The notes under the pieces were generated by a model that saw nothing but the letters and a program-made list of their open reading frames with translations, was not told the origin of the DNA and did not search any database. The position numbers were made by a program, and so were the translations under genes. 64,000 bases of DNA from Flavivirga amylovorans (GTDB taxonomy: Bacteria > Bacteroidota > Bacteroidia > Flavobacteriales > Flavobacteriaceae): assembly GCF_030540875.1 (NCBI RefSeq), contig NZ_JAUOEM010000001.1:1116001-1180000 (forward strand), in the 5' to 3' direction. The first letter of the stretch is position 1, and each line of letters starts with the position of its first letter. Below are positions 1 through 48,664 of this stretch, piece after piece.

Positions 1-2
1 AT

Positions 3-12911: not shown

Positions 12912-12914
12912 ATT

Positions 12915-25532: not shown

Positions 25533-25832
25533 ATGCTGCATAAATACTTAGTTTATATAACTACCAATAAGTATCGAACCACTTTGTATATTGGTTTTAC
25601 TAATAACATCCAAAACAGGTTATCTCAACACTATTTTGATAGTCAAAATGCTAAGAAGTCATTTGCGGGCAAATATGGCTGTATTTATCTAGTATACTAT
25701 GAAACTTTTGAATATCCTAAGCTTGGCATAGCCAGAGAAAAAGAATTAAAAAAATGGAGACGTGAAAAGAAAAATAAATTAGTATCAGATTTTAATCCAA
25801 AATGGGAGAATTTGAATAATCAAATATTTTAA
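25533..25832 (+). CDS. GIY-YIG nuclease family protein, copy 2
   Basis: A 99-residue GIY-YIG protein with the same motif set as copy 1 (YITTNKYRTTLYIGFTNN, NRLSQHYF, AREKELKKWRREKK). It differs from copy 1 at five residues only (F/L, F/Y, V/I, D/E, I/L), although it lies 18 kb away and on the other strand. Both copies are wrapped in the same dispersed repeats, so recent duplication together with flanking repeats is likely. Activity is not shown by the sequence alone. Confidence 0.85.
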   Translation: MLHKYLVYITTNKYRTTLYIGFTNNIQNRLSQHYFDSQNAKKSFAGKYGCIYLVYYETFEYPKLGIAREKELKKWRREKKNKLVSDFNPKWENLNNQIF

Positions 25833-26349: not shown

Positions 26350-26418
26350 CCATTCGTCTACACTTGATTTTCATTCACCGAAAATAAAAATATACCCCCT
26401 AATGGTCATGTAACTTTG
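26350..26418 (+). promoter_or_regulatory. LytTR-type operator and promoter before the T9SS secreted protein
   Basis: CCATTCGTCTA (26350-26360) and TCATTCACCGA (26371-26381) are direct repeats exactly 21 bp apart with the spacer CACTTGATTT, almost identical to the spacer of the 21033 operator. A perfect -7 box, TAACTTTG (26411-26418), begins 30 bases after the second repeat. The gene starts at 26439. Confidence 0.7.
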
Positions 26419-26438: not shown

Positions 26439-29018
26439 ATGAAAAAAATATTACTACTACTTGTACTTATTTACACGAATGTATATACACAAGATATACC
26501 GTTTAATTGTGATTACAATGCATACTTATTCCAATACAATGATGTGTATGCTATAGATTTAGCTTCTGGTAGCTCATATACAGTCGCTACCGATGTTACA
26601 GAAGGCTCTATTAATGCAGCCGCATATAATCCTGCAGATGGCTTTATCTGGGGGTCATTAAGCTTTCCTTCAAAATCTATAGTTAGAATAGGTAAAGACT
26701 TTTCAACGCTTACATTTTATGTAGATGAATTACCGACTTCTAGTAGGTATGTTGGAGATGTTAGTGCAGAAGGTATTTATTATCTAAAAGGTGGTGGAAC
26801 ACCATATTATGCTATAGATCTAAATCCTGAATCTGATAACTACGGAAATTATATAGCAACTAAGAATTTATCAAAAAGTATAAGTATTCACGACTGGGCA
26901 TTTAATGCTGTGGACGGTAAGCTATATACTGTAGAAAAGAAAACGAATATATTATACCGTATAGAAGCAGAAAACGGCACCATGGAAAGTTTAGGCGAAG
27001 TCCCAATCTTATCTGGTTTAAATTACACCTATGGCGCCGTTTATTTTGATGCATCTGGACGTTTTTATGTATCGGCAAATCAAACAGGAACTATTTATGT
27101 GATACAGAACGTACAAGATTTAGATGGTACGAATGCTATGGATTCTAATCTATTTGCTTTTGGTCCTTCTAGTTCTCAAAATGATGGTGCGCGTTGTCCA
27201 ACAGCTCCAGTACCACAAGAAGATTGTACCAATGGTATTGATGATGATGGAGATGGTCTAATAGATTGTGAAGATCCTTCATGTTCTGGTTATGCAGCGT
27301 GTCCTGTAATAGAAGCACCAACATCTAGTGGTAATTCAGGAGGACTGGAAAGCAACAACAGGTTGTCTGAACAGATTAATAAACGAAACTTTAATCGTGC
27401 TAAGAACAATTACAAATTTGATAAAACATCAGCGAAACGATTTACAAAATCTGCTAAATATGGTAAAAAGACTGGTAAAACAGGATTACAATTATCAGAC
27501 TTCGTTCCGTTAGAGATTTTAAATGAAGATCATGTTATAGAATCATCCCCTACAGATTTATTAGGTATTACGAATGCAACAGATATATATTCAGTGGACT
27601 ATATGAAAGCAAACGAAGCTGTTGCAACGATAATGGTTTTAAAAACGGATAAAGGCGTTTACGAACACACGAAATACATTTGTGATAGATTATTAGGCGC
27701 CGAATTAATATCTGTATCAACGATAGAAATCAAAGAACAGAAATTTATAAAAGCATTGATTAGAAATATTGATGGTTCTTTGGAATTTGTATTGAGTTTA
27801 TCAGCAAAACCTATTAATAATGGTAGCGAATTTGGAATTGAAAGCCATTGGAATTTAGATAAATATGAAAACAATGTGCCGTTCTATAATTTCCAAATAT
27901 GGTCAAATTCTTTAGATGATTTATTACGTCTTGGAGAAGAAGTAGTACGATTGTTAGATGTTCAAAAACCAGTAACAAGTTATGATAACTCAACACCACC
28001 AACCGTATTTGTTAGAAAAGGTAAGTATCATCATGGAAAACTAGAATTACAAATTGTAAATACCAATAGGAGTGAAGCCGTAAAATTTGATGGCGGATTA
28101 AGAGTTACTGAATCGGATACAGTAGAGTACGTGTCATCAACCTTAGATTTAGATGGTAATTATATTACCAATATAGAAGTAGATGCAGGTAACTTGTTTG
28201 ATATAGGTTTTAGAATAGGCGATGGGATAGAAACTCCAGATGATTTGTTTATGTCTGATGGTCCTTGGGGATACGATAATGCAGCACCAAGTACAGTCGT
28301 TAACACATATAATGTAACACCTAATGAAGAGGAATTTAATGATGATGAATATCCTATTGAGCGTAATATAGAATTAGTAGCCAATACGAGCGAATATATT
28401 GCAGCTTACAGAGCTTTAACACCTAAATTTAATCCAATAAATTTATCAGATTATAATAGCTTACAGTTTAGAGCTAAAGGAACTGGTACTTTGATTGTAA
28501 GATTGGTTAAGGAAGGTGTAAGCAACTGGGAAGAACAATACAAAACCAGTGTTGCATTAACTAACGAATTACAGGATTATAGTTTAACGTTTTCTGAATT
28601 TACATCTATTACTGGTGATAATTTTGAAGCGAACGATGTAACGTCTATAGTGTTTACTATGCTAGCAGAAACCGGTGTTGTAGAAACTAAAGAAATGACG
28701 TTGCAACAATTACGTTTTTCGACTAGTAGCACACTTTCGGTAGAATCATTTACTAATGAAAAATTTAATAAGACGTTTGCATCTCCTAACCCAATGGTAT
28801 CTAATACAACGATCCATTTTACAAGTCAAGCTTCAGAAAAAGTTGAGTTGTTAGTCTACAATCAATTAGGAAGTTTGGTTAAAAAGATGACTCATGAGAC
28901 TGTAAGTGGTAAAAATGAAATAAAATTAAATAGAACAGGTTTAGGTTCAGGGTTGTATTTCTGTAATATAAAAAGCAATGCAACAACTTATAAAACAATA
29001 AAATTACTCATAGAATAA
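26439..29018 (+). CDS. Large T9SS-secreted protein with propeller and carbohydrate-binding-like domain
   Basis: An 859-residue exported protein. Signal peptide residues 1-17 (ending VYTQ). Residues about 20-260 form a propeller-like repeat region (AFNAVDGKLYTVEKKTN, FDASGRFYVSANQTG). DCTNGIDDDGDGLIDCEDPSC (about 265-285) is a short Asp-rich calcium-binding-type repeat. The segment about 660-770 (NLSDYNSLQFRAKGTGTLIVRLVKEG...SIVFTML) resembles a CIA30/galactose-binding beta-sandwich, and the end is a T9SS type A sorting domain (ASPNPMVSNTTIHF...GLYFCNIKSNATTYKTIKLLIE). Surface-anchored or released; sugar binding is plausible. It has its own LytTR-type operator, like the polysaccharide genes. 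Confidence 0.78.
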   Translation: MKKILLLLVLIYTNVYTQDIPFNCDYNAYLFQYNDVYAIDLASGSSYTVATDVTEGSINAAAYNPADGFIWGSLSFPSKSIVRIGKDFSTLTFYVDELPTSSRYVGDVSAEGIYYLKGGGTPYYAIDLNPESDNYGNYIATKNLSKSISIHDWAFNAVDGKLYTVEKKTNILYRIEAENGTMESLGEVPILSGLNYTYGAVYFDASGRFYVSANQTGTIYVIQNVQDLDGTNAMDSNLFAFGPSSSQNDGARCPTAPVPQEDCTNGIDDDGDGLIDCEDPSCSGYAACPVIEAPTSSGNSGGLESNNRLSEQINKRNFNRAKNNYKFDKTSAKRFTKSAKYGKKTGKTGLQLSDFVPLEILNEDHVIESSPTDLLGITNATDIYSVDYMKANEAVATIMVLKTDKGVYEHTKYICDRLLGAELISVSTIEIKEQKFIKALIRNIDGSLEFVLSLSAKPINNGSEFGIESHWNLDKYENNVPFYNFQIWSNSLDDLLRLGEEVVRLLDVQKPVTSYDNSTPPTVFVRKGKYHHGKLELQIVNTNRSEAVKFDGGLRVTESDTVEYVSSTLDLDGNYITNIEVDAGNLFDIGFRIGDGIETPDDLFMSDGPWGYDNAAPSTVVNTYNVTPNEEEFNDDEYPIERNIELVANTSEYIAAYRALTPKFNPINLSDYNSLQFRAKGTGTLIVRLVKEGVSNWEEQYKTSVALTNELQDYSLTFSEFTSITGDNFEANDVTSIVFTMLAETGVVETKEMTLQQLRFSTSSTLSVESFTNEKFNKTFASPNPMVSNTTIHFTSQASEKVELLVYNQLGSLVKKMTHETVSGKNEIKLNRTGLGSGLYFCNIKSNATTYKTIKLLIE

Positions 29019-30299: not shown

Positions 30300-32360
30300 T
30301 TACTTCTTAAAAACAGGCTTCTCAAACAAATACCACTTAAAACGCAGCCCAATTTCAGTAAACGTAAATCCAGCAGCAGTAGCAGAAGCTATATTACTTC
30401 TAGTCCCATAAATATTTAATAAAGCGCGGTCACAAAATTTATAACCTAACTTGCCTTGAATACGATATGTACTTTGTTTTTCATTGTTTTCAATAAATTG
30501 ATAACCCGTAGCAGCCGTTAACTCATAAAACCATTCTTTAGGTTTGGTGGTCACTTCATCTTTAATCAAGTTTATAAAAATCTCTGTAGCATTAAATTTT
30601 TCTGGACTAAAATAAATAGCTGGAACTTGGTTCTTAAAAGTAATGTACTGATAGTTTAGGCCTGCTTTTAATGATGGTTTACTAAGGATGTTATAATACA
30701 AGGAGGTAAACAATAAATTTCTGCTGTTATCATCGTTTTGCGACGTATAATAATATTGCGTAAACCAGCCTAAATTAAAGTTGGTACTTAAGTTATAATT
30801 CGCATAAAAGTGGTTCATAACAATTTCACGATCTAATAGATCTGCATTAAAATTTTGAAGCTCTCGTTTATAACCAATATCTAAAACTTGTAATTTAAAG
30901 GGTTTTATATTAAAAGACACATCGGTTAGTAATTGCGTGTAATCATCTGTATCCGCTTTTGCTGAGGTGATACCAGCAGTGCCTTTAAAAGTGATGTTTG
31001 GTAATAACTGATAGGCTAATCCTAATGAAAAATTATTTGATGTCGCTTTATTATCGGTTACAGAATTACTAGTCGTTCTATATCCGTAATTAGCAAGCCA
31101 CTTAAATTTTGTAGATGTTGGGAATTCAAGATTCGTTTGGAATGCATAAGTTTCGTTATCCCCATTATCAAAAGTATAAGACCCTTTCGTTTCTAAAAAA
31201 GGGGTAAAACGCATATCTAAATCTTTAATAAAATTAGTAGCATCTTTTTGTTTATCATAAAACTGTAAAGTGTTGTTTGCCGACTCGTAGGCTTCATTAT
31301 AAAAACCAGAGGCTTTTAGTGCATTGGCCTTTCCTAAGTTGCCATCAAAAGAGGAGGTATCGTTTTTTAAAATACTGTTGTAATCCATCACACTCTTTTT
31401 AAAATCACTTTTATAGATATTCAATGTCGCTCGTAAGGCTAAAACCCAATTATCATTAGGCTTTATTTTTATCAATTCATCTATTAAAGATTGAGCTTCT
31501 TTATACTTTTTATTCCAAATTAAGGCTTGAATATAGAGCTCTTGCGTTTGCTGTTTGAGTGTAGCATCGTTTAAATTTGCTAAGGTGCTATAAGCCTCTT
31601 CACTAATTTTAAAAGCGGCTTTTTCTTTGCCTTTTAAGTGTTTTACTAAGGCAAGTCCGTTTAAGGCTATCGTTTTATCAGTTTCATTGCTACCTATAGT
31701 ATTATAGATTGTTTCGACTTTATCGAAGGTTTCAGTTATTAAATATAGATTGGCTAAATTGATTAAGGTTTCTTTATCATTTTTAAAAAGAGATAAATTC
31801 TCTTTTAAAAGGCGTTCAGCTTCCTCATAGTTCTGTTGCTGTTGATTTTTATAAGCATAACCTAAATTGATGTACTTTTTGGAGGTTAATGCATTTTGGT
31901 TTCCTGGAGAAGTTTCTAAAGCTTTATTAACATATCTTAAAGCCTCATCATAGATCTTTAGATTAGATAAGGTGTTGGCATACCCTAAAAGCGCTGGAAA
32001 ACTTTGATCGTTTTCTTTAATAAGATTTTCATAATAGTTTTTAGCTGTATCATAGTTTTTATCCCATAGTAGAGATTCAGCGTAATTCAGTTTGATTTCA
32101 AAATCATTGGGATAGTCTTTTAACAAATCTGTAAATATAGAAACAGCTTCTTTAGAGTTTCCATTTAATCCGACGGCACGCCCATAGCATAGTTTTGCTG
32201 TTTTATTTTGTGGATACTCCTTTAAAACAGTTTTAAAGTATGTTTCAGCAGCTTCATATTTGCCAGTTTCTAAGTAGGTGAATCCTTCTTGCATGTTTTG
32301 AGACACCCCAAGTGAACTAATAAACAGGGCTATTAAAACTAAATATGATTTAAATGTCAT
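30300..32360 (-). CDS. TPR / outer-membrane beta-barrel protein (YaiO/PgaA-like exporter)
   Basis: A 686-residue protein. After the signal peptide (MTFKSYLVLIALFISSLGVSQ) it has a long series of about ten TPR helix pairs (YLETGKYEAAETYFKTVL..., YAESLLWDKNYDTAKNYYENL..., YNEAYESANNTLQFY) up to residue about 370, followed by amphipathic strands (about 390-686; SYTFDNGDNETYAFQTNLEFP...LGLAYQLLPNITFKGTAGIT...GLRFKWYLF), typical of YaiO-type barrels. A periplasmic TPR joined to a barrel is the plan of exopolysaccharide exporters such as PgaA and BcsC. Its start faces the LytTR operator of the divergent STAS-flippase operon. Export of the polysaccharide made by the neighbouring genes is inferred. 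Confidence 0.8.
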   Translation of the reverse strand: MTFKSYLVLIALFISSLGVSQNMQEGFTYLETGKYEAAETYFKTVLKEYPQNKTAKLCYGRAVGLNGNSKEAVSIFTDLLKDYPNDFEIKLNYAESLLWDKNYDTAKNYYENLIKENDQSFPALLGYANTLSNLKIYDEALRYVNKALETSPGNQNALTSKKYINLGYAYKNQQQQNYEEAERLLKENLSLFKNDKETLINLANLYLITETFDKVETIYNTIGSNETDKTIALNGLALVKHLKGKEKAAFKISEEAYSTLANLNDATLKQQTQELYIQALIWNKKYKEAQSLIDELIKIKPNDNWVLALRATLNIYKSDFKKSVMDYNSILKNDTSSFDGNLGKANALKASGFYNEAYESANNTLQFYDKQKDATNFIKDLDMRFTPFLETKGSYTFDNGDNETYAFQTNLEFPTSTKFKWLANYGYRTTSNSVTDNKATSNNFSLGLAYQLLPNITFKGTAGITSAKADTDDYTQLLTDVSFNIKPFKLQVLDIGYKRELQNFNADLLDREIVMNHFYANYNLSTNFNLGWFTQYYYTSQNDDNSRNLLFTSLYYNILSKPSLKAGLNYQYITFKNQVPAIYFSPEKFNATEIFINLIKDEVTTKPKEWFYELTAATGYQFIENNEKQSTYRIQGKLGYKFCDRALLNIYGTRSNIASATAAGFTFTEIGLRFKWYLFEKPVFKK

Positions 32361-32512: not shown

Positions 32513-32791
32513 ATGGCACTTAAAATTACCAATCAAGATGGAACATTTTTAATAGAAGGAACTATCAACACTTCTACGGCACTGAATTTTCAAAATCATT
32601 TAGAATCTATTTTAAATGTATATGAGACACTAACGATTGATATTGAAAACGTCACAGAAATTGATGCTAGCGGTATGAATGCTTTAAGAGCTCTATACTC
32701 AAATGCATTAATTTACAACAGACCCTTTTATATTATTGGTACGGGTTGTAAAGAAATCTATGATGATTTCATGTTTACCAATGCAGCATAA
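32513..32791 (+). CDS. STAS-domain protein 1a
   Basis: A 92-residue STAS (anti-sigma-factor antagonist-like) protein. It has the phosphorylatable-Ser motif TEIDASGMNALRAL, as in SpoIIAA/RsbV (D-x-S-G). It is the first gene of an operon: STAS 1a, STAS 1b, flippase, each starting close to or overlapping the previous. A nearly identical copy occurs on the minus strand at 36666. No SpoIIAB/RsbW kinase or PP2C phosphatase is encoded in the window, so the partner is elsewhere or the proteins act otherwise, for example as scaffolds. Confidence 0.88.
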   Translation: MALKITNQDGTFLIEGTINTSTALNFQNHLESILNVYETLTIDIENVTEIDASGMNALRALYSNALIYNRPFYIIGTGCKEIYDDFMFTNAA

Positions 32792-32824: not shown

Positions 32825-33133
32825 ATGAACTTCAAAATTATAAATAACAAAGGTGTTTTTGAAATACACGGACACTTTACAAATGCAAATACCAACCAAG
32901 TAGCTGACTTCTTTAATAATCTATTGGATAGATATTATGAGATTGTAATATGTCTTAAACAAGTAAAATGTATAGATAGTAAAGCCATAAATGTTATGCA
33001 GTTTATAACTACTAAAGCTAAAAGACGAAGTAAAGTACTATTTGTTTTAGGGAAAGATAATATACGTATAAAGAAGCAATTTGAAGAAGTTAACTTAATG
33101 AACATATTTAGAAATGATTACTCTAGCAAATAA
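32825..33133 (+). CDS. STAS-domain-like protein 1b
   Basis: A 102-residue STAS-fold protein: VFEIHGHFTNANTNQVADFFNNLLDRYYEIVICLKQVKCIDSKAINVMQFITTKAK. The position of the phosphorylatable Ser-Gly in STAS 1a reads IDSKAI here, so the canonical D-x-S-G is not kept; the minus-strand paralogue reads IDETAI and lacks Ser. The reading frame overlaps the start of the flippase by 20 bases. It may pair with STAS 1a as a non-phosphorylatable partner; that is a suggestion from gene order only. Confidence 0.75.
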   Translation: MNFKIINNKGVFEIHGHFTNANTNQVADFFNNLLDRYYEIVICLKQVKCIDSKAINVMQFITTKAKRRSKVLFVLGKDNIRIKKQFEEVNLMNIFRNDYSSK

Positions 33134-34355
33134 TTTAAAGAAAAGAGTGACTCCAGAACAGTTATTTATGATAAGTGTTCTAGCTGTAAACGGCGGGAAT
33201 TATTTATATAATCTCATTCTTGGTCGTTTGTTAGGACCAGCACAATTTTCAGATGCTGCGGTATTAATAACATTTTTATTGGTACTGTCTTTTGTCGCCA
33301 TGACGTTTCAGTTGGTCACAGCAAAATTCTCAGTACTTTTTGAAAACCAATTATTTAAAAGCTTTGTTTCAAAAATTTATAAAAACGCATTAATCGTTGG
33401 CATCGTAATGGGGGCATTAATTATTGGTTTTGCAATACAATTACAAGAACTGTTTAATACTTCGTCATCCAGTATGTTCGTAATATTTGGCTGTGGAGTA
33501 CCCTTATATTTTTTAATGAGTGTGAATAGAGGTGTTTTTCAAGGAAAAAAAGCATTTAAGGCATTATCTATGACGTATCAATTTGAAATGCTTAGCCGTT
33601 TGCTGGTTACCTTAGGGTTGATCTTTTTGTTCAACATACAATCTTCTGTAGTCATAGCGATGGGTATTTTAATCTCATTTGGATTTGGTTTAATACCTTT
33701 TAAATTCAAGGCAATTGATCTTAAATTGAAATCTTCCCTATCTGTTTTACAAGCGAAACAAGTAAAACAGTTTTTTATATTAACAGCGTTTTATGAATTG
33801 ACACAAATCATAATAAACAACAGTGATATTCTTTTAGTAAAACATTACTTTGAATCTTATGAAGCAGGCTTATATGCGTCTTTAGCTTTAATAGGACGTA
33901 TCGTTTACTTTATAGCCTGGATGTTTGTTATGTTGCTATTGCCAACGGTGGTTCAATTAAAAAAAGAGGGGAAGGAAACGGCCTCTATATTGTTTAAATA
34001 TGTTGGGTATATAGCTGTCATTTCAATACTGATTGTTTTAGCATGTTTAATGTTTCCCGAAACCATCATAAAACTATTATTTGGTAATAATTACATTGCT
34101 ATGGCACCTCTTTTATGGAAATACGCTATGGCTACCAGTATGTTTGCCATTTCTAACATATTTGCGTATTACTATTTGTCTTTAGATACCTATATACCAG
34201 TGATTATATCGGGCGTATTTGGAATACTTCAAATGATATTAGTGATCTTTTATCACGATAGTTTACAGCAAGTTGTTTATATGCAGATTATTGCCATGGC
34301 TTTATTACTGATTATTCAACTTCTATGCTTCAAATTAGATCAGAGAAGCGTTTAA
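33114..34355 (+). CDS. Polysaccharide flippase-like membrane protein 1
   Basis: A 413-residue protein with about 12 membrane segments, of the MATE/Wzx-type polysaccharide biosynthesis family: GNYLYNLILGRLLGPAQFSDAAVLITFLL at the start and the loop LLVKHYFESYEAGLYASLALIGRI, typical of Wzx/PST flippases. It likely moves lipid-linked sugar units across the inner membrane. Only the first ATG lies before the first membrane segment, so it overlaps STAS 1b by 20 bases and is coupled to it. A paralogue of 414 residues lies at 38541, next to the second GT4 gene. Confidence 0.87.
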   Translation: MITLANNLKKRVTPEQLFMISVLAVNGGNYLYNLILGRLLGPAQFSDAAVLITFLLVLSFVAMTFQLVTAKFSVLFENQLFKSFVSKIYKNALIVGIVMGALIIGFAIQLQELFNTSSSSMFVIFGCGVPLYFLMSVNRGVFQGKKAFKALSMTYQFEMLSRLLVTLGLIFLFNIQSSVVIAMGILISFGFGLIPFKFKAIDLKLKSSLSVLQAKQVKQFFILTAFYELTQIIINNSDILLVKHYFESYEAGLYASLALIGRIVYFIAWMFVMLLLPTVVQLKKEGKETASILFKYVGYIAVISILIVLACLMFPETIIKLLFGNNYIAMAPLLWKYAMATSMFAISNIFAYYYLSLDTYIPVIISGVFGILQMILVIFYHDSLQQVVYMQIIAMALLLIIQLLCFKLDQRSV

Positions 34356-34370
34356 TCTGTATTTGTCATT

Positions 34371-34980
34371 CTGAGGAGCACCATAAGTGTGACGTGAGAA
34401 TCTGTCAAATTTAAAACAAAATCACCTTTTATTTTTTCTTTCAATAATGCGATTTCTCGTCGCTCATGCTTCGCTCAGTCGAAATGACACAGAACGTTGA
34501 ATGATCTCTTTAAGTCATGTCGAACGCAGTGAGACATCACACAGCAATGGCTTTACTATGCTTCTGTAACCTATCTCTATATTAATAACTAAATTTAACT
34601 ATTGTTAAATGAAAAATATAATTATAAGTAAATTGTGAATGCTTTAGTTGAAAACTATAAATAGAGAATCTATTCTATTTATATAGTAGCTTCTATTCTT
34701 CAAATTAGATCGTAATAGAGATTAATTTTGCCTGTCATTCAGAGCAAAGCGAACCTGCCTGCAGCAGGCAGGGAATCTCAATGTGTATCAATTAGAAATT
34801 AATGGTTTGTGTTATTTTTAGATTCTTCAGTCGTTCTTTCTTCTGAATGACAAAGTATTTCTTCAGATTAAATTAAAAGGCGTTTAGTAACTACTTGTCA
34901 TTCCTGCGAAGGCAGGAATCCACTTAGAAAGTAATAGTTTCAATTCATAAGATTCCTGCCTTCGCAGGAATGAGAGCCTA
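34371..34980. repeat. Dispersed repeats in the 760-base gap before the GT4 gene
   Basis: TGTCATTCTGAGGAGCACCA (34384 region), then the inverted GCGATTTCTCGTCGCTCATG...CGAAATGACAC (34450-34495), GTCATGTCGAACGCAGTGAG (34517 region), GTCATTCAGAGCAAAGCGAA...GCAGCAGGCAGGGAATCT (34735-34780), and the inverted pair TGTCATTCCTGCGAAGGCAG (34898 region) / GATTCCTGCCTTCGCAGGA (34951-34970). These are REP-like elements of the type seen beside the GIY-YIG genes. No gene is evident. Confidence 0.65.
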
Positions 34981-34995
34981 ATCTAAACCAAATTA

Positions 34996-35065
34996 CCATT
35001 CATCTACAGTAAATGTCAACCTATCTACAACCAACCCTTTTCAAAATATAAAATCCTCAAATTTA
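34996..35065 (+). promoter_or_regulatory. LytTR-type operator and promoter of GT4 gene 1
   Basis: CCATTCATCTA (34996-35006) and CAACCTATCTA (35017-35027) are 21 bp apart. A weak -7-like box, CAAATTTA (35058-35065), begins 31 bases after the second repeat, as at the other four sites. The gene starts at 35115. Confidence 0.62.
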
Positions 35066-35114
35066 TACTATAACTAAAGAAAAAAACTATTAAGAAACTT
35101 TAAAACATAGACTT

Positions 35115-36332
35115 ATGAAACTAGCAATCGTAACAGCATATCCACCAAGTAAAGTCACTTTAAACGAATATGCATATCATTTAGTAAAACATTTTAGACA
35201 AAGAGAAAACCTTACTGAAATTGTTCTATTAACCGATAAAACAGAAGGAGAAAAAGATTTACAATTTGTAGAAGCTGGTTGTAAAGTGACCGTTAAAGCA
35301 TGTTGGTCATTTAATAGTTATACAAATATTATAAAAGTAACTCAAGCTATAAACCAAACAAAACCTGATGCCGTATTATTCAATTTACAGTTTATGAAGT
35401 TTGGAGATAAAAAGATTGCTGCAGCTTTAGGGTTAATGTTACCTTGGGTTTGTAAACTAAAAAAGATCCCGACAATAGCTTTATTGCATAATATAATGGA
35501 AGAAGTAGACTTAGAAAGTGCTGGTTTTACTTCGAATAAAATCATGAAAAAAATATACGGATTTATAGGGGCGACTTTAACCAGATTAATTCTCAAGGCA
35601 GATGTGGTAGCCGTTACAATGCAAAAGTATGTAGATGTTTTAGAAGAAAAATATAAGGTCAAAAATGTAAAATTAATCCCTCATGGAACATTTGAAATCC
35701 TCGAAGAGCCGAGTTTTAATGTGCCACTACAACCTTTTAAAGTGATGACTTTCGGGAAATTTGGAACGTATAAAAAGGTAGAAAACTTAATTGAAGCAGT
35801 AGAAGCAATTAGAAGATATTCAAATTTAAATTTAGAAATTGTCATAGCAGGAACCGATAACCCAAATACACCAGGGTATTTAGAGTCTGTAAAAAAGGCT
35901 TATAGCCATGTAGAAGGATTAACTTTTACGGGGTACGTTGAAGAGCAGGATGTACCAAAATTGTTCAAAGAGAGTGCGCTTGTAGTATTTCCTTATACAT
36001 CTACAACAGGAAGCTCTGGTGTTTTACATCAAGCAGGAAGTTATGGTAAAGCGGTCGTGATGCCAGACATAGGAGATTTAGCTCTTTTGGTTAAAGATGA
36101 AGGGTATAGAGGTGAGTTTTTCGAGCCAACAAGTGTGAGCAGTTTAGCATTGTCGATACAAAAAATCCTTGAAAATAATGCTTATAGAGTAGAATTAGAA
36201 CGCGCTAATTATAAGGCTGCTACGGCATATCCTATGTCCAGAATAACGAATATGTACTTAAACACCTTTCAATCTATAATTTTGAAAAAGAAAAAAGAAA
36301 CATCACAAGAAGAACAAATGACACTGGTTTAA
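35115..36332 (+). CDS. GT4-family glycosyltransferase 1
   Basis: A 405-residue cytoplasmic glycosyltransferase of the GT-B fold: the N-terminal MKLAIVTAYPPSKVTLNEYAYHLVKHF (donor-acceptor cleft), and the C-terminal GT4 block PFKVMTFGKFGTYKKVENLIEA...LVVFPYTSTTGSSGVLHQAGSYGKAV, where NDP-sugar binds. A paralogue at 39829 is very similar over its entire length except near the C-terminus. It is convergent with the STAS 2b gene, with one base between the stop codons. Donor and product are unknown. Confidence 0.87.
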   Translation: MKLAIVTAYPPSKVTLNEYAYHLVKHFRQRENLTEIVLLTDKTEGEKDLQFVEAGCKVTVKACWSFNSYTNIIKVTQAINQTKPDAVLFNLQFMKFGDKKIAAALGLMLPWVCKLKKIPTIALLHNIMEEVDLESAGFTSNKIMKKIYGFIGATLTRLILKADVVAVTMQKYVDVLEEKYKVKNVKLIPHGTFEILEEPSFNVPLQPFKVMTFGKFGTYKKVENLIEAVEAIRRYSNLNLEIVIAGTDNPNTPGYLESVKKAYSHVEGLTFTGYVEEQDVPKLFKESALVVFPYTSTTGSSGVLHQAGSYGKAVVMPDIGDLALLVKDEGYRGEFFEPTSVSSLALSIQKILENNAYRVELERANYKAATAYPMSRITNMYLNTFQSIILKKKKETSQEEQMTLV

Positions 36333-36333: not shown

Positions 36334-36642
36334 CTATTTAAAATCGTAATCATTTCCGAAAACATAAATTAGATTGGCTTTATTTAATTGACTATAGATT
36401 CTTTTGTTTTCATTGCCAAGCACAAAAAGTATTTTACTTCTTCGCTTGGCTTTGTTGGAGATAAACTTCATAACGTTGATAGCTGTTTCATCAATCTGCT
36501 TTACATGTTTAAGGCATATTACAATCTCATAATATGTATCTAATAGATTGTTAAAAAACGTGGCGACCTGATTGGTATGCTCGTTAATGAAATCACCATG
36601 GATTTCAAACACACCTTTGTTGTTTACTATTTCAAGATTCAT
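36334..36642 (-). CDS. STAS-domain-like protein 2b
   Basis: A 102-residue paralogue of STAS 1b (VNNKGVFEIHGDFINEHTNQVATFFNNLLDTYYEIVICLKHVKQIDETAINVMKF). The Ser-Gly of the STAS phosphorylation site reads IDETAI, so it cannot be phosphorylated there. It follows STAS 2a by 23 bases on the minus strand. The STAS 2a/2b pair is an inverted duplicate of the 32513 pair. Confidence 0.75.
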   Translation of the reverse strand: MNLEIVNNKGVFEIHGDFINEHTNQVATFFNNLLDTYYEIVICLKHVKQIDETAINVMKFISNKAKRRSKILFVLGNENKRIYSQLNKANLIYVFGNDYDFK

Positions 36643-36665: not shown

Positions 36666-36944
36666 TTATGCAGTCTTAGTAATCTTTAAATCATCATAGA
36701 TTTCTTTACAACCCGTACCAATAATATAAAAGGGCCTGTTATAAGTTACTGCGTTATCGTAAAGTACTCTTAGAGCATGCATGCCACTGGCATCTATTTC
36801 TGTGACATTCTCAATATCAATAGTCAATGTTTCTTGTAAATTTAATATGGATTCTAAATGCTCTTGAAAATTTAATGCTGTAGAAGCGTTAATAGTTCCT
36901 TCAACTAAAAATGTTCCGTTTTGATTGGTAATTCTAAATGCCAT
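36666..36944 (-). CDS. STAS-domain protein 2a
   Basis: A 92-residue paralogue of STAS 1a, with the conserved TEIDASGMHALRVL and the D-x-S-G site, and the shared tail PFYIIGTGCKEIYDDL. Roughly four of five residues match STAS 1a. There is no LytTR-type repeat upstream (36944-37082). Confidence 0.87.
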   Translation of the reverse strand: MAFRITNQNGTFLVEGTINASTALNFQEHLESILNLQETLTIDIENVTEIDASGMHALRVLYDNAVTYNRPFYIIGTGCKEIYDDLKITKTA

Positions 36945-37081: not shown

Positions 37082-38215
37082 TTATCTATAGTGTACAGCT
37101 ATTTGTCCTAGTTGTCCAACAATCTTAATAGAGTCTTTCATAGACAATTTAGAACCGTCGGCATGGATCCATCTTTTAAGTGGTTGTTCGCAGATATAAG
37201 AAATGGCTTTTTTCTTTCCGTAATGTTTTCGCATTCTTATAAAAATCTCAACATCAAAGAGCCAACGAGTAATAAATTTGTCTTTAAACATATGTTTTGT
37301 AATGTCTTTATCCATAATTTTTGCACCACATTGAGTATCATTAAACGGCATACCTAAAATGGTTCTTATAATCAGGTTTATTGTTTTACTAATGATTTTA
37401 CGAGCAGATTCTTTCGTAATATTGGCGCCCATTCTACTCATTCTGGAACCACTAATAATTTTAAAATCGGAAGTCTCTATGGTTTTAACCAAATCATCAA
37501 AATCCCTAAAATCTGTAGATAAATCAGCATCTAAATAGCCTATATAATCTAATTGGGGGTCTTTTGCTAAATGCAACACACCCTGTCTAACAGCTTCACC
37601 TTTCCCACCATTCTTTTCACAATTAAATACACTAATATTAGCTTCTCTATTCTTGCATAAGTTGTTTAACACTTCTAAGGTATTATCTGTACTACCATCA
37701 TTTACAAAACACAAATGATAGCCTAAGTTACTATCAACAAAATCAAAAAACTCTTTACTTAAAAGCCTTTCCTCTTCATTATAACAAGGAATAACAACGC
37801 CAACACAGCGTTTTTGAAGCATTTGTGCTTTTTTGTTCTCTGATTTAGCTGTTTTTATTCCAAATATTCTGGAGATTCTAACAGTTACTTCGCTAAGAGA
37901 TACCGGTTTTTTCATGTAATCATCGATGCCCAAATCGAATCCATCAATAATGGTATCTTCATCTGTATTTCCAGAAAGCACTAAGATTTTGGTTTTAGAC
38001 TTTTTTTCTAATCTAATGGATTTTACGACTTCTAATCCAGACATACCACTCATGTTTATATCTACAATAACGATGTCCGGTTTAAATGTGTCAAAAAGAT
38101 CTAGGCCTTCTTTTCCATTGTTAGCACATTTTATATCATAACCTAAATCGGTTAAATGTTTTTCTAATGATAACAGTATTAACTGTTGGTCATCTATTGC
38201 TAAAATTTTTATCAT
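37082..38215 (-). CDS. Receiver-GT2 (ALG5-like) fusion protein 1
   Basis: A 377-residue fusion, starting at the ATG of MIKILAIDDQQ (38215); an in-frame upstream ATG (38257) is less likely. Residues 1-120 are a receiver: DD pair, phosphoacceptor in DIVIVDINMSG, Ser in ILVLSGNT, Lys in DYMKKPV. From about residue 140 a GT2 glycosyltransferase follows: GVVIPCYNEEE, CFVNDGSTD, GYLDADLSTD (DxD metal site), KESARKIISKTIN, DTQCGAKIM and RWLFDVEIF, the pattern of dolichyl/polyprenyl-phosphate glucosyltransferases (ALG5). It has no membrane segment. I infer that phosphorylation of the receiver controls the transferase. It is divergent from flippase 2. Confidence 0.9.
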   Translation of the reverse strand: MIKILAIDDQQLILLSLEKHLTDLGYDIKCANNGKEGLDLFDTFKPDIVIVDINMSGMSGLEVVKSIRLEKKSKTKILVLSGNTDEDTIIDGFDLGIDDYMKKPVSLSEVTVRISRIFGIKTAKSENKKAQMLQKRCVGVVIPCYNEEERLLSKEFFDFVDSNLGYHLCFVNDGSTDNTLEVLNNLCKNREANISVFNCEKNGGKGEAVRQGVLHLAKDPQLDYIGYLDADLSTDFRDFDDLVKTIETSDFKIISGSRMSRMGANITKESARKIISKTINLIIRTILGMPFNDTQCGAKIMDKDITKHMFKDKFITRWLFDVEIFIRMRKHYGKKKAISYICEQPLKRWIHADGSKLSMKDSIKIVGQLGQIAVHYR

Positions 38216-38540
38216 AACTAGCGTGTTTTGATGTCTGATTTTTTTTTGAAAAAACACCTTAAAAGGTAAGTTTTTTTGAATTGTTTTGTAGTAAATATAT
38301 TCTTTTTTTTGAAAGAAATGTAATATTTTTAATAAAAAAACAAGATAAAGTGTTATATTTATCCGATATAATGCAATATTTTATGAGGTAATATGGCTAA
38401 TAATGCATTTTTCAAAATTATAGCTTAACCCTTAGTGTCATTAGATTAAATAGTATAAAAAAATGCGTTTTTTTTACAAAATAGACAAGTCCGTTTGATA
38501 CAAAAATTATGTAGGCGAAATGTTATTAAATTATTAACCA
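38216..38540. other. Divergent intergenic region between receiver-GT2 1 and flippase 2
   Basis: About 325 AT-rich bases with no gene. A -7-like box for the leftward gene, TACATTTC on the minus strand, is at 38315-38322. No LytTR-type repeats are visible, unlike the second receiver-GT2 gene at 51935. Confidence 0.5.
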
Positions 38541-39785
38541 ATGCAAATAAAATCGTTTATTATACCAAAAAAAGTTAGCCCAGAGCAGTTATTTATGCTA
38601 AGTGTATTACTAGTTAATGGCGGGAATTATTTATATAATTTAATTCTTGGACGACTTTTAGGACCAACACAATTTGCAGATGCCGCTGTATTGGTCACAT
38701 TTTTACTCGTATTATCCTTTGTAGCGATGACGTTTCAATTAGCAACAGCAAAATTTTCCGTGCTTTTTGAGTCTAACTTATTTACAACCTTTATTATAAG
38801 GGTTTATAAAAATGCTGTTTTAATAGGGATACTCTTAGGAATAACGATTATAATATGTGCACCTCAGTTACAAATCGTATTTAATACTTCAACATCACAC
38901 ATGTTTGTCATCTTTGGTATTGGTGTGCCTTTTTATTTTTTGATGAGTGTTAACAGGGGCATCTTTCAAGGAAAAAAAGAATTAAAATCACTTTCTATTA
39001 CGTATCAGGCAGAAATGCTTAGTAGGCTTATAATAACACTGGCTTTAATTTTTATACTATCCGATATAGCAAGTTCCACACTAATTGCCTTAGGGATCTC
39101 CATATCCTTTCTATTTGGTTTAATACCCTTCAGATATAAAGACATATCATTTAAAACAAAAACAGTCATTGGTAAAACAGAGCTTAAATCAATACGAAGT
39201 TTTTTTTTATTAACCGCATTTTATGAACTCACCCAAATTATCATTAATAACAGTGATATCTTATTAGTGAAGCATTATTTTGAACCTTATGAAGCAGGTT
39301 TATATGCCTCGTTAGCACTCATCGGCCGTATTGTATATTTTGTTGCCTGGATGTTTGTGATGTTATTATTACCAAAGGTCGTACAACTAAAAAAGGAAAA
39401 TAAAGACACATCAAAAGTGCTATTTAATTATGTGTTATATATAATTATTATTTCCTTGACAATAATACTAGGTTGTTCTTTATTTCCTGAAACAATTATT
39501 ATCATTCTTTTTGGAGAAAGCTATATATCAATGGCTGGTTTGCTTTGGAAATATGCATTAGCAACCTCCATGTTTGCCATATCAAACATATTTGCCTACT
39601 ACTATTTGTCTTTAGATAGATATGTACCAGTCATCATATCTGGAGTATTTGGGATGTTGCAAATGGCATTAGTCATATTTTTTCATGATAGCTTAAAACA
39701 AGTCGTTTATATGCAAATAATAGCGATGGTTTTATTGCTATGCATCCAGCTTATATTTTACAAATTTGATTATAAAAACAGATAA
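38541..39785 (+). CDS. Polysaccharide flippase-like membrane protein 2
   Basis: A 414-residue, 12-helix paralogue of flippase 1, with the same blocks: VNGGNYLYNLILGRLLGP, NRGIFQGKKELKSL, ITLALIFILSD, NSDILLVKHYFEPYEAGLYA. It precedes GT4 gene 2 by 43 bases, so this pair probably forms an operon, whereas in the first module the flippase and GT4 are 760 bases apart. No STAS gene precedes it. Confidence 0.87.
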   Translation: MQIKSFIIPKKVSPEQLFMLSVLLVNGGNYLYNLILGRLLGPTQFADAAVLVTFLLVLSFVAMTFQLATAKFSVLFESNLFTTFIIRVYKNAVLIGILLGITIIICAPQLQIVFNTSTSHMFVIFGIGVPFYFLMSVNRGIFQGKKELKSLSITYQAEMLSRLIITLALIFILSDIASSTLIALGISISFLFGLIPFRYKDISFKTKTVIGKTELKSIRSFFLLTAFYELTQIIINNSDILLVKHYFEPYEAGLYASLALIGRIVYFVAWMFVMLLLPKVVQLKKENKDTSKVLFNYVLYIIIISLTIILGCSLFPETIIIILFGESYISMAGLLWKYALATSMFAISNIFAYYYLSLDRYVPVIISGVFGMLQMALVIFFHDSLKQVVYMQIIAMVLLLCIQLIFYKFDYKNR

Positions 39786-39828: not shown

Positions 39829-41034
39829 ATGAAATTAGCCATCGTAACTGCATATCCGCCTAGTAAAGTCACATTAAATGAATATGCATATCATTTAGTA
39901 AAGCACTTTAGACAAAGGGACGCATTAACAGAAGTTGTATTATTAACAGATAAAACCGAAGAAGACAAAGAGTTACAATTTGTAGAAGCAGGTTGTAAAG
40001 TCACTGTTAAAGAATGTTGGTCATTTAATAGTTATACTAATATAATAAATGTGACCAAAGCCATTAATAAAACACAACCTGACGCTGTATTATTCAATTT
40101 ACAGTTTATGAAGTTTGGCGACAAAAAGATTGCTGCAGCCTTGGGCTTGATGTTACCTTGGGTTTGTAAACTAAAAAAGATCCCGACAATAGCTTTATTA
40201 CACAATATAATGGAAGAAGTCGATTTAGAAAGTGCTGGTTTTACATCGAATAAAATCATGCAAAAGATTTACGGGTTTATAGGATCGACTTTAACCAGAT
40301 TAATTCTTCAGGCTGATGTTGTTGCTGTTACCATGGAAAAATATGTCGGTATTTTAGAAGCAAAATATAAAACTAAAAATGTGAAACTCATACCACACGG
40401 TACGTTTGAAATTCCCGAAAAACCAGATTCTAAAATAGCAACAGACCCTATGCAAATTATGACCTTCGGAAAGTTTGGTACTTATAAAAAGGTAGAGGAA
40501 ATGATTGAAGCAGTCGAAAAGGTAAGACAATTTACAGGATTAAATCTAGAGGTTGTAATTGCAGGAACCGATAACCCCAATGTACCTGGCTATTTAGAAA
40601 AAGTGAAAACCGATTATAAACATATAAAACAAGTGCGTTTTACTGGCTATGTAGAAGAAAGTGACGTGCCCGTACTATTTAATGAAAGTGCCGTTGTTGT
40701 ATTTCCGTATACATCCACAACAGGAAGTTCTGGAGTATTACATCAAGCAGGTAGTTACGGTAAAGCCGTTATTATGCCTGATTTAGGGGATTTAGCCTTA
40801 CTTGTTAAAGATGAAGGCTATCGAGGCGAATTTTTTGAACCTACTTCTGTGGATAGTTTAGCAAAAGCTATCGAAAAGATCGTGACAGACGATGATTATA
40901 GAAAAGAACTTGGACATGCCAATTATAAAGCAGCAACCGCATACCCCATGTCTAAAATCACAGAAATTTATTTAGATACGTTTAAAGAGATAAACAACGG
41001 AGATACTAAAAAAGTCATACTGTATAAAAGTTGA
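39829..41034 (+). CDS. GT4-family glycosyltransferase 2
   Basis: A 401-residue paralogue of the GT4 at 35115. The first 180 residues are almost identical (MKLAIVTAYPPSKVTLNEYAYHLV...), and the GT4 nucleotide-sugar block is the same (TGSSGVLHQAGSYGKAVIMPD). The differences are mostly in residues 190-260 and at the C-terminus, which could alter donor or acceptor choice. It follows flippase 2 closely. Confidence 0.87.
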   Translation: MKLAIVTAYPPSKVTLNEYAYHLVKHFRQRDALTEVVLLTDKTEEDKELQFVEAGCKVTVKECWSFNSYTNIINVTKAINKTQPDAVLFNLQFMKFGDKKIAAALGLMLPWVCKLKKIPTIALLHNIMEEVDLESAGFTSNKIMQKIYGFIGSTLTRLILQADVVAVTMEKYVGILEAKYKTKNVKLIPHGTFEIPEKPDSKIATDPMQIMTFGKFGTYKKVEEMIEAVEKVRQFTGLNLEVVIAGTDNPNVPGYLEKVKTDYKHIKQVRFTGYVEESDVPVLFNESAVVVFPYTSTTGSSGVLHQAGSYGKAVIMPDLGDLALLVKDEGYRGEFFEPTSVDSLAKAIEKIVTDDDYRKELGHANYKAATAYPMSKITEIYLDTFKEINNGDTKKVILYKS

Positions 41035-45920: not shown

Positions 45921-47435
45921 TCAAGGATGGTTAATATACTCATAAGCCTCTTTTTCAACCCCATGTTCATCTATAAAACCAAAACGCTTTTGAGCATTTT
46001 TACGCCAAGGCAGTCTACCAACAACTTCTTTTGGTATCTCTGTAAAGTCGTATAAAGTCCAGGACATAAAAGGGATGTTATTTTCAGAGAAGATGGTTTG
46101 GGCGTCTTTATGATAGTCGGCTTGGTCTGTTTCCGAGTTTCCAAACGGATTCCATAAACCACTGTAGGATGACATACCAAATTCGGTAATAGCAATGGGT
46201 TTGTCTGGTATGTCCGTTTTTAAGGTCTTGTATGTCACTTCTAAATCGTCCAACGCTTCATAATAGTGAAAAGATACAACATCAACCTTGTCTTTTAAAA
46301 GTGTTGCACTTTCTGCATTAGACCAACCAATGGTTACAGGGTGTTCCGAATCTAAGGACTTTACCAAGTTAATCATATGGTCCAACCACGCCATCACATT
46401 GACCTGGTTACGCGATTCAAAATCTAAATTGGGCTCATTTTTAATATCCCAGGCAAACAAGGCGTTATGGTTTTTTAATGCCGAAACGATGGTTTCTGCG
46501 TGACGCTGGTTTAAAGTCCAGTCTAAAACTGCATAATCGCCATAAAAATCAAAAAGTGTGACCATGACTTTTATGTGCTCCGCTTCAGCGACATCCATAA
46601 CCTGTACTAACTTTTTAAGTTTTTCAGAATCGACATTCGCTTTACCAAACGCTTCATAAGGCACAAAAATACGAATGCTATTTAGGCCTGCGTCTTTAAT
46701 GCGTTTAAAGTCTTTAGAAATGATGTCCGCATCAAACTGCTCACCAAACATATCCCAGGGCGAGGCTTGGGGATAATAATTAATACCTTTAATATCTAAG
46801 TTTTCATTTGAAACCGTCTTATTATCAGGTTTAAAATCTGCACTTGATTCTTTTACCATATGCCGAATGCGCCAAAAACCATCTTCTAAGAGCAAAATAA
46901 CCTTATAGGTGGATACATCGGTGGTTTCTAAAATCAAGGTCTCATTTTTGTAAATACGTTTGTATTCAACCACATTTTTATCAGTAAGAACCACTAATTG
47001 ACCATCCTCACTAAAAAACTCTAAATTAAGATCGTGTTGCAATGTGGTACTTTCAATCGTGATACCAGCATCAAGGTTTTCATCAATAATAGCATAGATG
47101 TTTTTACGTGCATTTTCTGTGTAATAATCATCAATGCCTTTTTTAGTATTAGTTTGATACCCTAAATGTTTTACATACCAGGCATCTAAATAATTAGTTT
47201 CAATACACCCTAAAGTTTGTTCGTCCATGGGCCTGCCTTCATTTTTAAGGGTTTCCCAAGTGATTTTTGGTAGGTATTGATCGATTTTTTTCACATCGGT
47301 ATGTAGCATGCTACTTCTATCTGCACCAGTATTCAGATAGCTATATAAGGCACTAAAACCATAGATAATAAAGCCAATAACGAGTACATAAGAAAGTACT
47401 AGAATACTACGCAATATGTTTCTGTTAATGTTCAT
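45921..47435 (-). CDS. Membrane-anchored clan-A glycoside hydrolase (GH5-like)
   Basis: A 504-residue protein. Residues about 9-30 are an uncleaved membrane anchor. The segment about 100-205 resembles an NTF2/SnoaL-type domain. A (beta/alpha)8 domain follows (from NLDIKGINYYPQASPWDM). The catalytic acid/base is Glu334 in WDIKNEPNL and the nucleophile is Glu418 in AITEFGMSS, 84 residues apart, as in GH5-type enzymes. Other clan-A marks are SIRIFVPYE and VVSFHYYEAL. It is the last gene of a three-gene operon with an overlapping junction (TAATG). A role in trimming or releasing the polysaccharide at the membrane is inferred. Confidence 0.85.
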   Translation of the reverse strand: MNINRNILRSILVLSYVLVIGFIIYGFSALYSYLNTGADRSSMLHTDVKKIDQYLPKITWETLKNEGRPMDEQTLGCIETNYLDAWYVKHLGYQTNTKKGIDDYYTENARKNIYAIIDENLDAGITIESTTLQHDLNLEFFSEDGQLVVLTDKNVVEYKRIYKNETLILETTDVSTYKVILLLEDGFWRIRHMVKESSADFKPDNKTVSNENLDIKGINYYPQASPWDMFGEQFDADIISKDFKRIKDAGLNSIRIFVPYEAFGKANVDSEKLKKLVQVMDVAEAEHIKVMVTLFDFYGDYAVLDWTLNQRHAETIVSALKNHNALFAWDIKNEPNLDFESRNQVNVMAWLDHMINLVKSLDSEHPVTIGWSNAESATLLKDKVDVVSFHYYEALDDLEVTYKTLKTDIPDKPIAITEFGMSSYSGLWNPFGNSETDQADYHKDAQTIFSENNIPFMSWTLYDFTEIPKEVVGRLPWRKNAQKRFGFIDEHGVEKEAYEYINHP

Positions 47436-48664
47436 TATAGCTTTATGTTTTCAAATGATTTTTCAATACGGGCGGTCTCTATGATGATTTTAAAGGTGTC
47501 ATTTATAGCGTTTGGTACAGGGATAATAGCTTCGTTTAATTTGAAGGTTACATACCCTTCAAAAGAACTTTTAGAAAGGGTTTTAATTTTTGTGTCGTTT
47601 TGGTAAAAATGCAGTTTTACTTGTAAGCCATCTGGTATCATTTGTTTCATAAAACTTTGCAAAGGGCCAACAGTGATGGTTCTGGAATTATCTGAGAAAA
47701 CCACCTCAAAATCGGTAATCACTTGTTTAAAATTAAGAGCTAGGGGAGCGCTTTCTGCCATACCTTCAATAAATGCTTTCACAGTCCATGCGTCTTCATG
47801 GTCTGGGTGAATCATTTTAGCGGTTGCAATACCATTAATGGTTGTACCAGATGTTTTAAGAATGTTGTTGTCTTTGTTTGTAATAAAGACATCGACATAG
47901 GTACCATCGCTAACGATGTTATCATATTTATCCCGAATTACGGAGGTTGTAAATGTTGTAATTTGATTGCCGTCAGCATAATTATGATGTTGTTGATACG
48001 AGATCTCAAAATTAGTAGGGATAGCAGGCAATACATTAAGAGTATACTCTTTAGAATGGGTGCCTAAAGCTTCCGAACTAATAAGCATGCGACCAGATTT
48101 AGTCTCAGAATACAGGTTTTTATAAGCTATTAAATAATTAGTATACAAAACGTTATTGTATTCTGAAGTCAAAAACTGATGTTTTATGTTAACCTGTGTG
48201 CTGTCTTGTAATGGATTATCGAGGGGGTCTGTTGGAATCACGACCAGCATCGCATAATCGGTTCCTCCAGCTTCAATACTTGGTGGTCCCAGATAGGTTT
48301 CCATGGTAATGACCTCTTGTTTAGGAGTGATATAAAATTTACCAGATAGGTTAGTACCCTTAGTCAATAGTTTCCAATTGACGAATCCCGTTTTGTTTGC
48401 TATACTTTTAGGCATTTCAAACGTTAAGATGGTGTTCTTATTCGTGCCCTGAATGACAACAGAACCATAACTATTGGAACAATATAATAAAGGGTTCGTT
48501 TCGCTGTACCCAGAAAATTTTAATAGGATGTTTTGACCAGCTTCAAATTCAGTTTCATGGGTTAAAAGCTTGAAAGGATCCTTTATTTCAGATTGCGCTA
48601 TAAGTAAAAAAGACGCTATAAACATCAAAACAGAGACTAGTATGTATGTGTGTTTATGCATCAT
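47435..48664 (-). CDS. Secreted Ig-like-domain protein of the polysaccharide operon
   Basis: A 409-residue protein with a signal peptide (MMHKHTYILVSVLMFIASFLLIAQ). The rest is beta-rich and resembles tandem Ig-like/invasin-type domains: EFEAGQNILLKFSGYSETNPLL, TYLGPPSIEAGGTDYAMLVVIPTDPLDNPLQDSTQVNIKHQF, YADGNQITTFTTSVIRDKYDNIVSDGTYVDVFITNKD. It has no T9SS sorting domain and no lipobox, so it may stay in the periplasm. It shares overlapping ends with both neighbours (TAATG), so all three genes are one translational unit. I do not recognise a specific family; it probably assists the membrane protein or the hydrolase. Confidence 0.7.
   Translation of the reverse strand: MMHKHTYILVSVLMFIASFLLIAQSEIKDPFKLLTHETEFEAGQNILLKFSGYSETNPLLYCSNSYGSVVIQGTNKNTILTFEMPKSIANKTGFVNWKLLTKGTNLSGKFYITPKQEVITMETYLGPPSIEAGGTDYAMLVVIPTDPLDNPLQDSTQVNIKHQFLTSEYNNVLYTNYLIAYKNLYSETKSGRMLISSEALGTHSKEYTLNVLPAIPTNFEISYQQHHNYADGNQITTFTTSVIRDKYDNIVSDGTYVDVFITNKDNNILKTSGTTINGIATAKMIHPDHEDAWTVKAFIEGMAESAPLALNFKQVITDFEVVFSDNSRTITVGPLQSFMKQMIPDGLQVKLHFYQNDTKIKTLSKSSFEGYVTFKLNEAIIPVPNAINDTFKIIIETARIEKSFENIKL

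Follow-up and report, generated by a model that had tools for sequence, protein, structure and literature searches.

We found that a receiver domain and a GT2 glycosyltransferase domain are joined in one protein, REC-GT2, and that the phosphorylation site of its receiver is invariant among the relatives compared. The gene lies on the minus strand of the window (the whole stretch of 64,000 nucleotides from Flavivirga amylovorans that was analysed), with its ATG at 38215 and its stop at 37082, and encodes 377 aa. The first-pass annotation, which named no strand, had claimed such a fusion at 37082-38215, and Pfam bears it out: Response_reg matches residues 4-114 at 2.9e-25 and Glycos_transf_2 matches residues 140-306 at 2.6e-21, both far over the cut-off, so that the two domains are not chance assignments. 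The window holds a second copy, 66% identical to the first. The features of the two copies are as follows.

37082-38215, minus strand: REC-GT2 copy 1, 377 aa
37856-38215, minus strand: receiver of copy 1, residues 1-120
38060-38062, minus strand: codon of the phosphoacceptor D52 of copy 1
37523-37531, minus strand: DxD site of copy 1 (D229-D231)
37082-37807, minus strand: GT2 domain of copy 1, residues 137-377, preceded by a variable linker
51935-53119, plus strand: REC-GT2 copy 2, 394 aa, divergent from the GT-C-like gene

Conservation was calculated for 68 distinct full-length REC-GT2 proteins, i.e., the fetched loci together with both copies of the window (71 if identical proteins are counted); the most divergent members, G113 and G117 (39-41% identical), stand outside this residue count. 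The acidic pair, phosphoacceptor Asp, Ser and Lys, which had been read as kept in copy 1, are D8, D9, D52, S81 and K103, and all five are invariant in 68/68 proteins. The DxD site of the GT2 domain, also annotated as kept, is nearly as constant (D229 in 68/68, D231 in 67/68). Averaged over positions, the share of proteins keeping the residue of copy 1 is 0.64 for the receiver, 0.77 for the GT2 domain and 0.27 for the linker between them. REC-GT2 thus has what is expected of a response regulator, namely the acidic pair, Asp, Ser/Thr and Lys, with an output of catalytic type in the same chain, and the invariance of the receiver site argues that something phosphorylates it.

The type of the enzyme was studied with an AlphaFold2 model (27 sequences, pLDDT 80.1, pTM 0.63). 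The modelled receiver (residues 1-122) matches OmpR-type receivers with Z of about 22. The modelled GT2 part (residues about 136-377) matches dolichyl-phosphate mannose synthase (DPMS; 5mm1, Z 21.2 over 215 residues, rmsd 3.1) and GtrB (9nyd, Z 20.8), with aligned lengths of 212-215 residues across DPMS and GtrB, and ArnC is the top match both in Foldseek and in a PDB sequence search with the GT2 part. The DPMS, GtrB and ArnC families transfer sugar to polyprenyl phosphate. By its modelled fold, the GT2 half is of this polyprenyl-phosphate transferase type: REC-GT2 shares with the class the GT-A fold (residues 137-377) and the DxD, and differs from it in the receiver in front and in the lack of a transmembrane anchor. 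No transmembrane or hydrophobic segment was found in REC-GT2, and the C-terminal transmembrane helices of the solved DPMS, GtrB and ArnC forms are absent from it; to our knowledge, membrane anchors are missing from some DPMS, and these helices are thus not strictly defining. A polyprenyl-phosphate acceptor and a nucleotide-sugar donor are accordingly predicted functions of REC-GT2. The earlier label of ALG5-like GT2, which goes by ALG5 motifs, holds as to the polyprenyl-phosphate type (5mm1, 9nyd, ArnC) but not as to ALG5 itself, a structure of which is absent among the matches listed. It should be noted that the relative placing of receiver and GT2 is not firm in the model (pTM 0.63; linker pLDDT below 50), so that a gating contact cannot be read from it.

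Around the two copies, the window contains the following genes.

30300-32360, minus strand: TPR protein, its C-terminal half by eye an outer-membrane barrel (export porin type)
32513-32791 and 32825-33133, plus strand: two small STAS proteins, module A
33114-34355, plus strand: flippase-type polysaccharide transporter, module A
35115-36332, plus strand: GT4 glycosyltransferase, module A
36334-36642 and 36666-36944, minus strand: two small STAS proteins, module B
38541-39785, plus strand: flippase-type transporter of module B, transcribed divergently from REC-GT2 copy 1
39829-41034, plus strand: GT4 glycosyltransferase, module B
45921-47435, minus strand: glycoside hydrolase, GH2/GH158-like; its single hydrophobic segment, at the N terminus, is taken to anchor it in the membrane
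47435-48664, minus strand: secreted or anchored Ig-like protein (Big_1, sub-threshold)
48664-51771, minus strand: GT-C-like membrane protein, residues 1-460 GT-C-like, followed by an NTF2-like part and beta domains
53133-53621, plus strand: short GT2 protein of 162 aa behind copy 2

There are two flippase/GT4/STAS sets in the window, and copy 1 falls inside the second. We counted the neighbours in 63 stretches with a full REC-GT2: the GT-C-like, flippase and GT4 genes are each present in 59, the hydrolase and the Ig-like protein in 58, the TPR protein in 42 and the STAS protein called STASa in 26, all of which are lower bounds, since the stretches end at about 20 kb, and at least three pairs of stretches represent one genome twice. 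In 50 of the 63, the GT-C-like gene lies next to REC-GT2 in divergent orientation; in the window this is true of copy 2 only, the divergent partner of copy 1 being the flippase gene. Receiver-less GT2s fill the same slot of the same cluster in relatives. These genes form a conserved flavobacterial cluster of exopolysaccharide type, the product of which is presumably an exopolysaccharide. Matches of the TPR protein to PgaA/BcsC-type TPR models are far below the cut-off, and no PelF, PelG or PelD model is among the Pfam and NCBIfam matches listed at E<=0.01, from libraries in which such models may be absent. A stand-alone receiver of 123 aa adjoins REC-GT2 in L139 (4779-5150), L068 (10001-10372, probably the same genome) and L069 (279-650, where its neighbour is a receiver fragment truncated at the end of the contig); these are 52-54% identical to the receiver of copy 1, as if the receiver could undergo duplication or exchange independently of the enzyme. 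Between flippase A and GT4 A (34356-35114), there are about 760 intergenic bases with several REP-like palindromic repeats, as judged by eye.

A STAS protein in the locus is a likeness to the syp system of Vibrio fischeri, in which SypA is, as we take it, a STAS protein switched by serine phosphorylation. Both STASa proteins of the window keep IDASG; in the 33 STASa rows of relatives, which include some genomes twice, ID.SG is kept in 12 and LD.SG in one more. With ID.SG in only 12/33 relative rows, a general SypA-like partner switch by serine phosphorylation is unsupported.

A PDB sequence search with the GT-C-like protein at E<=0.1 found nothing, and a structure model (pLDDT 63) was therefore used. 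At this pLDDT, residues 1-460 match oligosaccharyltransferase chains with Z up to 18.9 and ArnT with Z 15.9 and 15.3, and also AftA, PglB and DPY19 (Z about 13-19 overall); the best 17 VIA rows (Z 14-19) are oligosaccharyltransferase/translocon chains, which we take to be STT3/AglB, and ArnT. The Foldseek list is mixed, with transglutaminase 3 first and oligosaccharyltransferase chains second and lower. ArnC is known to make a lipid-linked sugar that ArnT then uses. Judged by the models, REC-GT2 and the GT-C-like protein look like such a pair of donor maker and user, and we propose the GT-C-like protein as the user of the polyprenyl-phosphate sugar.

Candidate regulatory sites were searched for with the word CCRTTCRTC. 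The window has four exact sites, compared to 0.74 expected (four were reached in 1 of 100 shuffles), and each of them lies upstream of a relevant gene. Sites with one mismatch are at chance level (24 versus 24 expected); therefore, only exact or matrix-supported sites were used.

21033-21062, plus strand: LytTR-type box and repeat (21033 exact, 21054 with one mismatch), upstream of the sensor operon
26350-26358, plus strand: LytTR-type box, upstream of the DUF6923/Por_Secre_tail protein at 26439-29018
34996-35004, plus strand: LytTR-type box, upstream of GT4 module A
51836-51844, plus strand: LytTR-type box, in the gap that separates REC-GT2 copy 2 from the GT-C-like gene
38216-38540, no strand assigned: divergent intergenic region of copy 1 and flippase B, with no exact LytTR-type box

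Over all stretches, the word occurs 89 times in intergenic DNA (136 kb) and 24 times in coding DNA (1.5 Mb); with repeats removed, there are 82 distinct intergenic boxes versus 1.1 expected from first-order resampling, counts that are not independent because orthologous promoters are related. In relatives, the boxes precede REC-GT2/GT-C, GT4, TPR and the relay operon itself. The boxes have the consensus ACCATTCGTCTACA, followed some 21 bp further along by a weaker repeat. Against the background of the AlgR/LytTR consensus, a LytTR regulator is the putative binder of these candidate boxes. The promoter of copy 1 had been said to lack the LytTR-type repeat of copy 2; this is what we observed, with an exact site at 51836 for copy 2 and none upstream of copy 1, where 220 bases score below the matrix threshold. 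A box above the threshold is present in 0/5 promoters of the clade of copy 1 (fork support 89/86), in 38/60 of other REC-GT2 promoters and in 15/21 receiver-less ones; the matrix was trained on the sites themselves, so that the latter two fractions lean upward, while the comparison with copy 1 is on equal footing. One member of the clade (L058) was left unscored, its upstream stretch being too short, and another (L139) has a weak sub-threshold site. The DUF6923 protein, which has a T9SS-type sorting tail and a box in front, is kept beside the relay or the cluster in L138/L178, L058 and L140, and is a possible secreted member of the regulon.

The sensor operon preceded by the first box encodes the following relay parts, one after the other.

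21141-21560, plus strand: stand-alone receiver, first gene of the operon
21717-22256, plus strand: H-NOX (heme NO/O2-binding) protein
22256-24235, plus strand: PAS histidine kinase (HisKA and HATPase_c)
24232-24552, plus strand: HPt phosphotransfer protein, which Pfam Hpt matches weakly (E 0.0012, under the cut-off)
24562-25275, plus strand: receiver-LytTR response regulator

H-NOX proteins have familiar heme motifs; for the one of the window, the closest PDB chain is 6bdd, an entry with the PDB label aldolase, which it matches over its full length (E 4.5e-98). The Hpt model matches five of the six orthologs scanned, the window's included; one passes the cut-off, and L078 has no match. In the 68 genomes with REC-GT2 (61 from the family sample and seven from the phylum sample), orthologs were found for LytTR in 67 (E<=1e-80), for HPt in 67 (E<=1e-6) and for H-NOX in 63; down to the limit of the search, 1e-40, each of the 68 has a LytTR match, that of G106 being only distant. 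Within 35 kb of the nearest REC-GT2, on one contig, lie LytTR in 53 of these genomes, HPt in 56 and H-NOX in 55, counted by the best match per genome with few exceptions, and with weaker second matches (H-NOX of G160 and G135) left out. HPt and LytTR are at most 1.6 kb apart in 64/68. Where linkage fails, the genes are mostly on other contigs; in G100, LytTR, HPt and H-NOX are each more than 2 Mb from REC-GT2, and three genomes (G227, G172 and G011) have HPt and H-NOX near REC-GT2 with the best LytTR match elsewhere. Fisher values for the linkage take no account of relatedness and carry no weight here.

As a control, we used 80 of the 238 family-sample genomes outside the 61, i.e., 17 with a close receiver-less GT2 and 63 others, taken first in number order and including G062, the REC-GT2 of which is cut by a contig end. 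The GT-C-like gene is present in 16/17 of the former versus 1/63 of the latter (the one being G062), LytTR at E<=1e-70 in 16/17 versus 13/63, and H-NOX in 16/17 versus 12/63; the genomes are related, and such co-occurrence overstates independence. Within 36 kb of the receiver-less GT2 on one contig, LytTR lies in 10 and H-NOX in 11 of the 17 genomes. The relay is thus equally present with receiver-less GT2s, and goes with the cluster regardless of the receiver. Ten genomes (G009, G024, G034, G051, G057, G063, G071, G083, G086 and G087) have H-NOX and LytTR without a GT-C-like match at E<=1e-60. By eye, nitrite/nitrate assimilation genes lie near the H-NOX operon in the window (1-19413, with a NarX-like kinase at 4991-6805 and a LuxR-type regulator at 7633-8286) and are a possible local source of NO; two nearly identical 99-aa proteins, GIY-YIG-like by eye (7006-7305, minus strand, and 25533-25832, plus strand), bracket a stretch with part of the nitrate genes and the relay.

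The reading that we prefer, to which we give an even chance, is that REC-GT2 is a response regulator with a soluble polyprenyl-phosphate transferase as its output, and that one relay controls both the transcription of the cluster and the synthase. The GT2 domain would take a sugar off a nucleotide donor and place it on polyprenyl phosphate at the inner membrane face, a flippase-type protein would turn the sugar-lipid over, and the GT-C-like protein beside copy 2 would use it as the donor to build or decorate a polymer, which the TPR/barrel protein would export and the hydrolase would trim. Phosphoryl groups from the H-NOX/kinase/receiver/HPt relay would reach two proteins: the LytTR regulator, the putative binder of the boxes before the cluster genes, and REC-GT2, the activity of which would be set by phosphorylation after translation; copy 1, having no LytTR box, would then mainly feel this direct arm. 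The phosphotransfer to REC-GT2, the sign of the control and NO as the signal are all presumed here. The phosphorylation-gated transfer that the first-pass annotation had suggested is likewise conjectural; the invariant receiver site and the linked relay raise its likelihood, and the receiver-less GT2s in the same cluster slot make it less obligatory. Because clusters with these GT2s have the same relay and boxes, the receiver appears as an added layer. A bolder version is tentative, and we consider it rather unlikely: an NO-sensing phosphorelay would switch polysaccharide synthesis directly at the transferase-response regulator, in parallel to LytTR and with no second messenger, and copy 1, outside the LytTR regulon, would be a fast, purely post-translational arm.

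The linkage of the relay is not proof that it acts on REC-GT2, since receiver-less clusters show an equally strong tie to the relay and boxes, and the LytTR arm alone explains the linkage. This favours an alternative that is possible, albeit clearly less probable than the preferred reading, in which another kinase, not encoded here, phosphorylates REC-GT2, and the H-NOX relay acts on transcription only, via LytTR. H-NOX is on another contig in 7/63 REC-GT2 genomes and over 2 Mb off in one (G100), and HPt is on another contig in 10/67 and over 2 Mb off in one, several of these assemblies being broken; however, HPt lies within 35 kb of REC-GT2 in 56/68 genomes, and relays commonly have one HPt that feeds two receivers. 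The simplest account is a gas-sensing relay with LytTR over a polysaccharide cluster, in which one lineage added a receiver to its lipid-sugar synthase.

Somewhat less probable still, at about one chance in four in our judgment, is that the receiver governs place or assembly, i.e., that phosphorylation drives receiver pairing or docking on the GT-C-like protein or the flippase, while the GT2 domain is always active. Something must bring an enzyme that has no membrane segment to its lipid acceptor, the GtrB structure 9nyf is titled 'tetramer volume', and the receiver is nearest to dimerising receivers of the OmpR type. However, the terminal helix of the GT2 fold in the model (residues 359-376) could itself bind the membrane, and receiver-less relatives hold the same slot without such aid. 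A similarly low probability attaches to a product other than a secreted polymer, such as a glycolipid of the cell surface or a glycan on proteins. Oligosaccharyltransferases are the nearest matches of the GT-C-like model, and no NCBIfam polysaccharide-synthase model reaches the cut-off for the ten cluster proteins scanned; on the other side, a TPR protein of export type, a hydrolase, a flippase and a GT4 are the usual kit for secreted polysaccharides.

The fusion was described as uncommon. It is almost wholly confined to one family in our samples, but within that family it is frequent: 62 of 299 Flavobacteriaceae genomes match over both domains (even family sample, E<=1e-20; 61 listed as such and G062, cut by a contig end; two at 39-41% identity). 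In the phylum sample, which shares several genomes with the family sample, 12 of 395 genomes match, 11 from Flavobacteriaceae and one from another family of the class, and in the class sample at E<=1e-60, the only match among 247 genomes is the window's own. Algibacter, Maribacter, Zobellia, Winogradskyella, Tenacibaculum and Flavobacterium hydatis are carriers among the matches listed. A plasmid-borne origin was rejected, as tblastn at 1e-20 gave no match in 72,556 plasmid records. In a tree of 87 GT2 domains (66 with and 21 without a receiver), the receiver-bearing ones are all on one side of one branch (99/98, from a bootstrap that had not settled) and receiver-less outgroups occupy the other side, which we read as a single fusion; no later loss of the receiver was seen among these 87 domains. 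It is improbable that the receiver does nothing to the enzyme, being a relic or a phosphate sink: the receiver is less conserved than the GT2 domain (0.64 vs 0.77) and receiver-less forms exist, but the five site residues are invariant in 68/68 proteins from across the family while the linker varies freely (0.27), and the one-branch distribution shows no later loss in that sample.

None of the papers listed in our searches of the open-licence PMC literature deals with a flavobacterial receiver-GT2. The architecture has a partial precedent with another glycosyltransferase domain, in the MTH_548-type proteins: the accessible part of PMC5847659 describes one or two receivers fused to a GT2-class, BcsA-like PF13641 domain in three genera of Methanobacteriaceae only. 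These are like REC-GT2 in joining a receiver to a GT2-class glycosyltransferase, and are archaeal and PF13641, whereas REC-GT2 is PF00535 of the DPMS/GtrB/ArnC type and lies in a polysaccharide-type cluster in Flavobacteriaceae. Membership of REC-GT2 in the MTH_548 type was rejected, as PF00535 is its best match and PF13641 is below the cut-off in copy 2 and unlisted for copy 1 at E<=0.01. Thus, receiver-GT2 fusions are already on record with a different GT2 domain in methanogens; the linkage to the H-NOX/LytTR relay and the LytTR-type boxes are a new addition to this observation.

The closest regulatory layout is that of V. fischeri, where, in the accessible part of PMC12369376, HnoX/HahK and SypF feed SypG, which acts on transcription, and SypE, which acts below it. 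The two systems have in common, as far as that part goes, an H-NOX operon with a kinase, an HPt step, a transcription regulator and a second regulator below transcription; in the window, H-NOX lies beside a histidine kinase, an HPt (weak match) and a DNA-binding regulator. The differences are that the window's DNA-binding regulator is a LytTR protein, and that SypE acts on SypA, whereas here the second regulator would be the glycosyltransferase itself. The H-NOX of Kordia algicida (PDB 6BDD) is treated as an isolated gas-binding domain, with its pathway unnamed, in the accessible part of PMC7356049; that of the window stands in an operon.

These results describe a predicted lipid-linked-sugar enzyme with its own invariant phosphorylation site, near a gas-sensing relay. 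The control of slime and biofilm in bacteria is usually ascribed to transcription or to second messengers, cyclic di-GMP among them; here, an environmental signal may act directly on an enzyme. The receiver-bearing and receiver-less enzymes that share one slot are a natural contrast for what the switch adds. The findings also provide a concrete and testable explanation of how nitric oxide might be linked to matrix production in many flavobacteria of marine and algae-associated habitats.
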